From positions 1 through 64,000 of the forward strand of contig CAJXPQ010000002.1 of the NCBI GenBank assembly GCA_913058265.1: a stretch of DNA of 64,000 nucleotides, read 5' to 3'. This DNA comes from an uncultured Oligoflexia bacterium. GTDB taxonomy: Bacteria > Bdellovibrionota > Bacteriovoracia > Bacteriovoracales > Bacteriovoracaceae. Shown in pieces: positions 26,374 to 45,235 of the stretch (positions are counted from its first letter, which is position 1; each line of letters begins with the position of its first letter). The notes under the pieces were generated by a model. That model saw only the letters and a program-made list of their open reading frames with translations. It did not search any database and was not told where the DNA came from. The position numbers and the translations under genes are program-made.

Positions 26374-26456
26374 TTAGATTTCATCGGAATATAAGCTGGT
26401 TACTTAACTTAAATTTTAATGACTTAGATAAAGTTGATAAATGAAAACTATTAAAC

Positions 26457-26540
26457 TGGTGGGCTCGGGGGGACTTGAACCCCCACACGCGAAGATAAGT
26501 GATTTTGAATCACTCGTGTCTACCATTCCACCACAAGGCC
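26457..26540 (-). tRNA. tRNA-Leu(CAA), copy 1, with a 3-70 mismatch
   Basis: Reverse complement: GGCCTTG acceptor 5' side, TGGTGGAATGGTAGACAC D arm, anticodon stem AGTGA/TCACT with loop TTCAAAA (anticodon CAA), a long variable arm, T stem GGGGG/CCCCC and encoded CCA. The 3' acceptor side is CGAGCCC, so position 3 faces 70 as C-C. All other pairs hold. It shares D arm and anticodon with the tRNA-Leu at 32189-32272, but the acceptor and variable arms differ. Confidence 0.9.
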
Positions 26541-26979
26541 ATTTTTTAGAATTTACCAATTCGTTTTCATTTTGATCAATTTTATTAATAATATCAACCA
26601 GTTAATCTATCTTATATGTTTGGTAATCAATTTTTCAACTCTATTTACCAATTCATCTTTTCTATCAATCATATCAATGGCTTATGGAACAAAATTCAAA
26701 ATTCTTATTTTTTTGAATCTTCTGTAGCTACCATTTGAAAATAGACCAAATTATAATCACCAATGTGTTCACTGTGGGATTGTGTTCGGTAGTGAAGAAA
26801 ATCGGATTTTCTAGAATGGTTAGTCATTATGTTAAATCATACATAAAGATTCGTTTTTTATGGTGAATGGAAAAAGAAAACTTATTTAAAGCAATTTAAA
26901 TTTTTTAATATAAATAGTTAAAATGAACCTCTTATAGAAACAAAGGATAAAATACTACAAGAAGTTCATTCATTTTAAA
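26541..26979. other. Gene-free AT-rich stretch between tRNA-Leu and the subtilisin gene
   Basis: No supported gene in 439 bases. It holds a 17-base perfect palindrome, AGAAAATC-G-GATTTTCT (26796-26812), an AT-rich inverted repeat ATTCAAAA/TTTTGAAT (26694-26718), and a direct repeat ATTTACCAATTC at 26551 and 26643. A short minus-strand frame (MIDRKDELVNRVEKL...) near 26610-26680 might be a gene-end remnant, but it has no further support. Confidence 0.6.
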
Positions 26980-32126: not shown

Positions 32127-32188
32127 CTTAAACTTGTTATTATAAATTTAATTATAAATTTAAAATGTTGAGAAGATGTCATTTGAAG

Positions 32189-32272
32189 TGGTGGCCAAGG
32201 CGGGACTTGAACCCGCACACCCGAAAGCGGTTGATTTTGAATCAACTGTGTCTACCATTCCACCACTCGGCC
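32189..32272 (-). tRNA. tRNA-Leu(CAA), copy 2
   Basis: Reverse complement: acceptor GGCCGAG pairs fully with CTTGGCC (with G-T/A-T ends), D arm TGGTGGAATGGTAGACAC, anticodon stem GTTGA/TCAAC with loop TTCAAAA (anticodon CAA), a long variable arm, T stem GCGGG/CCCGC and encoded CCA at 32189-32191. All arms pair, unlike copy 1. Confidence 0.95.
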
Positions 32273-32284
32273 ATTAAGATAAGT

Positions 32285-42475: not shown

Positions 42476-43045
42476 ATGGAACGTGGTAAGTTAATAGTTA
42501 TAGTGGCACCTTCTGGTACCGGTAAATCAACACTTCTTGAGCAATTAAAGAAAGATGTTCCCTCGCTTGAGTGGTCAGTATCTTGTACAACTAGGCCTAT
42601 GAGAGAAGGTGAGGTTAATGGAAAAGATTATCACTTTATCTCAAAAGAGGACTTTTTAGACCTTAGGTCTAAGAATGAATTTGTTGAGTGGGCCGAGGTT
42701 CACTCTAACTTCTATGGAACAAGTAAACCTTTTATAGATAAAGGGCTTGAGACAGGTGCTCACCTATTATTTGACCTTGACGTCCAGGGCTGTGACTCAA
42801 TGAGAGATATATACGGTTCAGAGGCAAATATTATCTTTATTGAACCTCCAAGTGTAGATGAACTGGAGAGGCGCTTGAGAGCAAGAGATACTGATTCGGA
42901 CCAGGTTATTCAAGAAAGATTGAATAATGCAAAAAAAGAGATTCTACGTAAAAACGATTTCGACTATAATGTAATTAATGATGAGTACGATAAGGCTTAT
43001 ACCAGACTTTATCAGATCGTGACGACTATACTTGGTAAGGAGTAG
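42476..43045 (+). CDS. gmk: Guanylate kinase
   Basis: A 189-residue GMP kinase. P loop APSGTGKST (11-19), SCTTRPMREGEVNGKDYHF (GMP site), YGTSK and the LID-region RLRARDTDS are all present. Reaction: ATP + GMP to ADP + GDP. The rpoZ gene that often follows gmk is absent here, and rel follows after three bases. Confidence 0.96.
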   Translation: MERGKLIVIVAPSGTGKSTLLEQLKKDVPSLEWSVSCTTRPMREGEVNGKDYHFISKEDFLDLRSKNEFVEWAEVHSNFYGTSKPFIDKGLETGAHLLFDLDVQGCDSMRDIYGSEANIIFIEPPSVDELERRLRARDTDSDQVIQERLNNAKKEILRKNDFDYNVINDEYDKAYTRLYQIVTTILGKE

Positions 43046-43051
43046 CTTATT
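43037..43051 (+). promoter_or_regulatory. Ribosome binding site and ATT start of rel
   Basis: AAGGAG (43037-43042) includes the end of gmk and lies six bases before the in-frame ATT (43049-43051). The gmk stop TAG (43043-43045) is in frame upstream, and no ATG, GTG or TTG occurs in frame before 43229. Confidence 0.65.
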
Positions 43052-45235
43052 TATAATAGGCTTGATTTTTCACATGAAGGCGACCTTACAATTGAAGAAT
43101 TAGTAAGAAGAGTAAAAGCATCGATACCAGATGTTAATGTAGAGCTCTTTGTACGTGCTTATGAATTCGCAGAACTCCATCACAGACCCCAAAAAAGAAG
43201 TTCAGGTGAACAGTATATAATTCACCCTATGAACGTTGCAGCTACCTTGATTAAGCTGAAGATGGATGAACAAAGTATTGTGGCCGGCTTCCTACATGAT
43301 GTCGTTGAAGACTGTGATATCTCTGAGGAAGAGATTCGCGCTGAGTTTGGAGATGATATCGCCCTTATTGTTATTGGCTGTACAAAGATTTCAAAAATAA
43401 AATTTAAAACAAAAGAAGAGTCCCAGGCCGAAAACTTTCGTAAGATGGTTGTGGCGATGGCGAAAGATATTCGTGTCATAATCGTAAAGCTTGCTGATAG
43501 AATGCATAATATGCTGACTCTTCAGTATGTCTCTAAAGAAAAACAAATAAAAAAAGCTCAAGAAACTCTCGATATTTATGTGCCACTTGCTAGTAGGCTC
43601 GGAATTAACTCTGTTAAGAGCGAACTCGAGGATCTTTGTCTGCGCTTTCTACACCCAGAGGTTTATTATCGCCTAGCTGAAAAGATAGCGATGAAAAAGT
43701 CAGAGCGTGAGAAGTATATTCGCGATACTGTAGATGAAGTTGTAGAAAAGTTTCTTGAATACTCAGTTAGGGCCGATGTTCATGGACGTCCTAAACACTT
43801 TTATTCTATTTACAAGAAAATGCATCATAGAGGCGTTGACTTTGATCAAATTCAAGATCTTCTTGCCTTTAGAATTATAGTGAATAACATTACCGAATGT
43901 TATAAGTGTTTGGGTATCATTCACTCATCTTTCACCCCGGTTCCCGGACGCTTTAAAGATTATATTGCAATACCGAAAGTGAATAATTATCAATCGCTCC
44001 ATACAACAGTCATTGGTCCTAAGGCCGAGAGAATTGAAATACAAATTAGAACAAATGAGATGCATGAGATTGCAGAGACTGGTGTTGCCGCTCATTGGTT
44101 ATATAAAGATAATAAAAAAACAAATAAGAAGCTACAGTGGGTTGAAGAACTCATGGAGTATAATCGTGATATCAAAGGAAGCTCTGAGTTTATGGACGTT
44201 GTTAAAAACGACCTTGACGTTGGGGGCATTTTTGTGTTTACGCCAAGTGGTGATGTTAAAGAGCTGCGCTATGCTTCTAGTCCTCTCGACTTTGCTTACG
44301 CCATTCACACGGATGTCGGAAATAAATGTGTGGGAGCAAAAGTTAATGGAAAGATGGTACCACTTAAGTACCGTTTAAAATCTGGAGACACTGTTGAGGT
44401 TTTAACAAGTAAAACTCAGACTCCAAGTAAAGATTGGCTTAAAATTGCAAAGTCAAGTAAGGCACGCACAAAGATAAAACAGTACCTTATTAAAAATGAG
44501 CGTGATAAAAATAAAGAGATCGGCGAAGAGATGCTTGAAAAAGCACTTAAGCAATACGGCTCAAGTATCAAAGCTATTGAAAAGAAAAATGAGTTTGCAA
44601 AAGTTTACGAGGAACTCAACTTAAAGAACTTAGAAGAGCTTAGTTTACATATTGGTTCTGGACGATTTTTAGTTAAACAAATTCTTGAATTACTTCCATC
44701 TATTGTTCTTGAAGAAGACACGGAGGAACCAAAGCAAAGAAAAACTTTTGATACCCTTTATAAAGAAGTCTCTGATAATGCCAAAAAATCTTCTAATAGG
44801 GACAATGCGGTTATCGTAGACGGTCTTGATGACATAATGGTTAGAATGGGCAAGTGTTGTAATCCTATACCTGGAGATCCAATCGTTGGCTTCATTACAA
44901 GAGGACGTGGAATAACAATTCATGTAAAAGCCTGCCAACGAGTTATGGAAGGGGAAGATACAAGGAAAGTGTATGTAGAATGGAATACTTCATACGCCTT
45001 CAGACATCCGGTTAGCTTACGAGTTATTACTCATGACAGGCCAGGAATACTTTCTCGTATCACAAATAATATTCACGGACACGGTATTAATATTAAGTCT
45101 GCCATCGCAAAATCACTTCCTGATATGAAAGGAAGCTTTCTCTTTGAAATAGAAGTTAAAGATTACTCTGAATACTTAAAAGTGGTCTCGCTGATTGAGG
45201 CGATGGAAGAGATCATCTCTGTTACTAGATCATAA
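43049..45235 (+). CDS. Bifunctional (p)ppGpp synthetase/hydrolase (RelA/SpoT family), ATT start
   Basis: From the ATT at 43049 the product is 728 residues, the normal length for long Rel proteins. Residues 36-60 read AYEFAELHHRPQKRSSGEQY then IIHP, the standard start of the HD hydrolase domain. His59 and the pair His83-Asp84 have the 24-residue spacing of the metal ligands of Rel from Streptococcus (His53, His77, Asp78). Starting at the first ATG (43229) would remove His59. Then come the synthetase domain (GRFKDYIAIPK, YQSLHTTV), TGS (VFTPSGDVKEL), helical and ACT domains. It is the last of the accA-yicC-gmk run, and is followed with no gap by a lipoprotein gene. Confidence 0.9.
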   Translation: MYNRLDFSHEGDLTIEELVRRVKASIPDVNVELFVRAYEFAELHHRPQKRSSGEQYIIHPMNVAATLIKLKMDEQSIVAGFLHDVVEDCDISEEEIRAEFGDDIALIVIGCTKISKIKFKTKEESQAENFRKMVVAMAKDIRVIIVKLADRMHNMLTLQYVSKEKQIKKAQETLDIYVPLASRLGINSVKSELEDLCLRFLHPEVYYRLAEKIAMKKSEREKYIRDTVDEVVEKFLEYSVRADVHGRPKHFYSIYKKMHHRGVDFDQIQDLLAFRIIVNNITECYKCLGIIHSSFTPVPGRFKDYIAIPKVNNYQSLHTTVIGPKAERIEIQIRTNEMHEIAETGVAAHWLYKDNKKTNKKLQWVEELMEYNRDIKGSSEFMDVVKNDLDVGGIFVFTPSGDVKELRYASSPLDFAYAIHTDVGNKCVGAKVNGKMVPLKYRLKSGDTVEVLTSKTQTPSKDWLKIAKSSKARTKIKQYLIKNERDKNKEIGEEMLEKALKQYGSSIKAIEKKNEFAKVYEELNLKNLEELSLHIGSGRFLVKQILELLPSIVLEEDTEEPKQRKTFDTLYKEVSDNAKKSSNRDNAVIVDGLDDIMVRMGKCCNPIPGDPIVGFITRGRGITIHVKACQRVMEGEDTRKVYVEWNTSYAFRHPVSLRVITHDRPGILSRITNNIHGHGINIKSAIAKSLPDMKGSFLFEIEVKDYSEYLKVVSLIEAMEEIISVTRS

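Follow-up and report, generated by a model that had tools for sequence, protein, structure and literature searches.

A very probable AUU start codon for the rel gene in a small clade of Bacteriovoracaceae

The rel gene studied here, from a member of the Bacteriovoracaceae, a family of predatory-type bacteria, very likely starts with an AUU codon at position 43049. It lies in a stretch of 64,000 nucleotides (the window), and its stop-to-stop frame (43046-45235, 729 codons) opens right after the stop codon of gmk at 43043-43045. From this TAG the rel frame runs on in the same register with CTT ATT TAT AAT AGG CTT GAT TTT. The segment 43031-43063, which spans the end of gmk and the proposed start of rel, reads ...cttggtAAGGAGTAGcttATTTATAATAGGCTTG. 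The first-pass annotation of the window had stated that the gmk stop closes the rel frame 6 bases before 43049, that there is no ATG, GTG or TTG between this stop and the ATG at 43229, and that an AAGGAG stands at the proper distance before the ATT. Reading of the frame confirmed these statements: the gmk TAG shares the rel frame, the earliest canonical codon is the ATG at 43229 (residue 61 counted from the ATT), and a 6-nt spacer (TAGCTT) separates the AAGGAG at 43037-43042 from the ATT. In addition, the 16S tail of the same genome carries the usual anti-Shine-Dalgarno sequence CCTCC. The features of the region are the following:

42476..43045, + strand: gmk, guanylate kinase, the upstream gene (Pfam Guanylate_kin 5.8e-46; open reading frame with stop TAG at 43043-43045)
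43037..43042, + strand: Shine-Dalgarno sequence AAGGAG within the last gmk codons (from the sequence and the anti-Shine-Dalgarno CCTCC in the 16S tail)
43049..43051, + strand: ATT, proposed rel start codon (ATT also in the genomes G003 and G061; elsewhere in the family the column is ATG, TTG or GTG)
43049..45235, + strand: rel, long bifunctional-type RSH (p)ppGpp synthetase/hydrolase, 728 aa from the ATT (Pfam HD_4, RelA_SpoT, TGS, RelA_AH_RIS and ACT_4; aligns with 6yxa)
43157..43606, + strand: HD hydrolase domain, residues 37-186 (Pfam HD_4)
43229..43231, + strand: ATG (Met61), first canonical codon in frame, rejected as start (lacks a Shine-Dalgarno sequence, cuts conserved HD residues, and is Leu/Ile in many relatives)
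43784..44116, + strand: (p)ppGpp synthetase domain (Pfam RelA_SpoT 1.3e-42)
44228..45229, + strand: regulatory C-terminal half with TGS, AH/RIS and ACT (Pfam TGS 6e-23, RelA_AH_RIS 1.8e-12, ACT_4 2.7e-11)

Judged by its sequence, the protein read from the ATT is an ordinary long RSH enzyme of the bifunctional type. The order of its Pfam domains (HD hydrolase and RelA_SpoT synthetase, followed by TGS and ACT) matches the long RSH architecture, and it aligns from residue 9 on with the solved GTP pyrophosphokinase 6yxa, an alignment in which the HD motifs RSSGE..IIHP and HDVVED are intact. The first 24 residues of the HD domain, which include RSSGE and His59, are encoded upstream of the ATG at 43229; the earlier claim that His59 lies before the first ATG was thus correct, since this histidine of the IIHP motif precedes Met61.

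To place this start in its family context, we compared the rel loci of related genomes, all of them assemblies and some of modest quality (G003, for instance, has 720 contigs and is 80% complete). Of the 129 family genomes searched, 122 yielded a rel gene. It was not found in G002, a congener, nor in six other genomes, and gmk was not found there either, so the rel-gmk locus is most likely missing from these assemblies. The 5' end of rel was read in 117 family genomes (the tally of start codons covers 115, to which one TTG and one ATG were added separately). In them the gene starts at one homologous place, with ATG in about 70 cases, TTG in 33 and GTG in 11, nearly always five or six codons ahead of the D in the DFSHE motif (codons -5 and -6). 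A canonical start is present at or near this place in 114 of the 117. The three genomes that have no ATG, GTG or TTG there are that of the window (G000), its congener G003 (locus L003) and G061, which by its label belongs to another genus (locus L142) and whose Rel is 80% identical; all three carry ATT at codon -5. In each, the ATT follows a purine-rich Shine-Dalgarno sequence after a spacer of 6 nt: AAGGAG-tagctt-ATT in G000, GAGGAG-taagct-ATT in G003 and AGGGAG-ctagat-ATT in G061, the last one being weaker. The flanking codons vary among the three, with CTT, GCT or GAT before the ATT and TAT, TTT or TTC after it. Given that 114 of 117 genomes are canonical at this site, and that the other three all have ATT in the same column and with the same spacing, its presence is more than chance. 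That rel starts at the ATT, the only good start in the view of the first-pass annotation, is strongly supported: it occupies the homologous position, recurs in two more genomes, has a properly spaced Shine-Dalgarno sequence, coincides with the onset of protein conservation and has no intact rival.

The proposal to look up this codon in related genomes gave a divided answer: the ATT is found in the same column in G003 and G061, but the congener G001 has GTG, so that the ATT is kept in three of the four members of the clade. Beyond the clade, neither 69 readable GTDB loci nor 19 such loci of further Bdellovibrionota families contained an ATT-started rel or one lacking a canonical start. In a maximum-likelihood tree built from 51 Rel proteins, the clade is resolved as (G061 ATT, (G000 ATT, (G001 GTG, G003 ATT))), with supported forks. 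This topology allows a history of one gain of ATT and one loss in G001, through a local change to a GTG one codon upstream, although independent gains may have occurred. The GTG of G001 (locus L002) overlaps the gmk stop (GTTAGTGG) and represents a different local solution. Among the three ATT genomes, the first 59 rel codons, from the ATT to Met61, showed pS values of 0.73-0.80 and pN values of 0.14-0.21. Since synonymous differences are saturated and non-synonymous ones are few, the stretch upstream of Met61 is coding and under constraint at the protein level. Moreover, with synonymous sites saturated and flanking codons different, the ATT has outlasted neutral sites.

Another aspect to consider is the use of such codons by the gene for IF3 itself. 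In 24 of 25 infC loci of the family, a script located the start at ATT, ATA or ATC, 4-6 nt after the core of the Shine-Dalgarno sequence; the remaining locus, L121, was read by eye (GGGAGGAGTTATT). Sixteen of the 25 loci are devoid of any canonical codon before the conserved PRVN motif. The infC of G000 (L111, G000:C3:166600-166900) reads GGAGG-tatatc-ATA, and ATA is the start in the congener G002 as well. A single bacterial family thus has infC starts of three kinds, ATT, ATA and ATC (L112-L141), and the spacing from the Shine-Dalgarno sequence is mostly fixed at 6 nt. On these sequences, initiation at AUU, AUA and AUC is very probably part of the normal repertoire of the lineage, for IF3, and for this reason non-canonical initiation is to be expected in the lineage of G000.

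In the mechanism that we propose, the AAGGAG, at its optimal spacing of 6 nt, would position the 30S subunit at the AUU at 43049, where the fMet-tRNA would pair with two of the three bases. Initiation on rel is probably assisted by ribosomes coming off gmk three bases before the AUU; in E. coli, excess IF3 lowers re-initiation too (PMC2268962). The product would be a full-length Rel of the bifunctional type with the N-terminus fMet-YNRLDFSHE. A low yield of Rel from this codon is quite likely; because AUU is a poor start, the enzyme would be made at a low level relative to Gmk. There was no sign of a stable RNA structure spanning the start codon, as 80-nt folds of the G000 locus and of L003 were no stabler than shuffled sequences (z 0.59 and 0.52). 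Rel synthesis would be predicted to rise if IF3 discrimination is weak and to fall if IF3 is abundant. IF3 represses AUU-type starts, and in the cases studied the sensitivity is intrinsic to AUU starts. For this reason, and since infC of the family uses ATT, ATA and ATC, control of alarmone synthesis by IF3 through the start codon is a plausible and reasonable prediction.

How much this prediction means for the cell is a separate question, and we regard a physiologically meaningful response of Rel to IF3 as rather unlikely. The AUU of rel is no strictly kept switch, because it is confined to three genomes and absent from G001. With this narrow occurrence, and with the IF3 response of Rel being a prediction, the new link between IF3 and the alarmone that the first-pass annotation had envisaged is best taken as a hypothesis with a sound precedent. 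A serious rival, one of meaning, is that the ATT is the true start and yet nearly neutral, or merely lowers the yield, with the good Shine-Dalgarno sequence compensating and with no regulatory role; we consider this fairly probable. It agrees with the frequency of weak starts in both gmk and rel of the family, with the origin of the ATT in one small clade that excludes G001, and with cvfC1 of S. aureus, whose AUU cut the yield without any response to the medium (PMC13009471). Against it, the ATT has been held at the same base through synonymous saturation in three lineages, at one change from ATG, and the intrinsic IF3 sensitivity mentioned above would apply to it. Start codons at the same loci gave no sign of a family-wide pressure for weak initiation of Rel: weak canonical starts are no more frequent in rel (69 ATG, 32 TTG, 11 GTG and 3 ATT) than in gmk (74 ATG, 30 TTG and 9 GTG). 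A doubtful though conceivable extension of the AUU start is that IF3 sets the amount of Rel in this clade via this codon, with the alarmone level coupled to the state of the initiation machinery (IF3 per 30S); the ATA start of infC probably buffers the ratio of IF3 to 30S in its turn. Were the synthesis of Rel sensitive to IF3, the fidelity of initiation would be tied to ppGpp, in a direct translational link with the stringent response.

To our knowledge, bacterial starts other than AUG, GUG and UUG are rarely documented, and gene finders miss them; an annotator would call the Rel of this genome lacking part of its hydrolase domain. In the literature searched, no rel gene was described as starting with AUU. 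AUU-type starts are already known elsewhere (infC, pcnB, sigR and ccpN), and rel very probably adds to them. One of them is E. coli infC, whose AUU start serves an autoregulatory loop of IF3, as shown by mutation of AUU to AUG. Both infC and rel have an AUU with a Shine-Dalgarno sequence, and IF3 repression is expected in both; however, autoregulation has been demonstrated in infC, whereas rel is another gene and its IF3 response is predicted. A translational GTPase case resembles rel in that an AUU start was inferred as the only way to restore the full-length protein, but it is a single-genome inference, while the ATT of rel is common to three related genomes. In E. coli pcnB, an unrelated gene that shares the AUU start with rel, the codon limits the amount of enzyme, an effect shown experimentally (Binns and Masters 2002, as cited in PMC1780047 and PMC13009471). 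The Streptomyces sigR gene is repressed by IF3 from its GTC start, and replacing the GTC with canonical start codons deregulates the response to stress (PMC5472188). Like rel, it encodes a stress-response regulator with a non-canonical start and a good Shine-Dalgarno sequence, and it is held low and conserved in one genus only; unlike rel, which has ATT and is known from sequence alone, it is a sigma factor gene with GTC and was tested experimentally. In S. aureus, AUU and AUA starts with an extended Shine-Dalgarno sequence give about 10% of the AUG yield (PMC13009471). The AUA of ccpN and the AUU of cvfC1 have a good Shine-Dalgarno sequence and are conserved in relatives, as in rel, although they were mapped by ribosome profiling, are more broadly conserved and have a longer Shine-Dalgarno sequence (PMC13009471).

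Other explanations of the missing canonical codon leave the AUU start in place. In G000, gmk and rel share a frame and are parted by one TAG (followed by C) and one sense codon, so readthrough could in principle yield a Gmk-Rel fusion, with no start of rel's own. We judge this very improbable: gmk ends in another frame than rel in G003 and G061, which also lack a canonical start, and G003 has an extra in-frame TAA directly before GCT ATT. Across the family the frame offset between the two genes is 0, 1 or 2 (37, 30 and 50 loci, respectively), and in the relatives rel has a canonical start of its own at this position. As a common explanation, a readthrough fusion is ruled out by the frame differences in G003 and G061. 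Even less credible is a start at the ATG at 43229, which has in its favour that no canonical codon comes before it in frame; no Shine-Dalgarno sequence precedes it, many relatives have Leu or Ile in place of its Met, and the 59 codons upstream of it are under purifying selection. The resulting Rel would lose RSSGE and His59, reducing the HD_4 profile match from 1-155 (with the ATT start) to 26-155, and an enzyme that makes the alarmone but is unable to hydrolyse it would presumably do harm. That the ATT is an ATG misread in sequencing or assembly, as suggested by two other genes of the contig with a single in-frame TAA in otherwise intact frames (point errors or recent mutations do exist there), is equally remote, since two more genomes, diverged from this one (80% Rel identity), have the same ATT in different surroundings, and independent hits on the same base in three assemblies are very unlikely.

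Finally, the AUU start of rel was set against other genes in a background survey, in which the contig C2 (360 kb, window included) was searched against parts of G001 and G012 (790 kb), covering 195 genes with homologues. Among the intact frames, rel alone had relatives with a start clearly ahead of its first canonical codon; the other genes flagged were one with a weakly aligned leader and the two with an in-frame TAA, both outside the window. One of the latter is a D-aminoacyl-tRNA deacylase-like gene, dtd (about G000:C2 211285, minus strand), with a single TAA in place of the Leu seen in the relative (NSIE*AVNKIKK) and a frame otherwise intact. The other encodes a secreted protein (about G000:C2 180597), with the TAA just past the signal peptide (NASTPT*KLVPVDH) where G001 has Glu. 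In each of them the TAA is either a recent mutation or a sequence error. The minus strand of the window also carries two tRNA-Leu(CAA) genes (26412-26543 and 32144-32275), which lie in 132-nt repeats only 71% alike and 5.7 kb apart.
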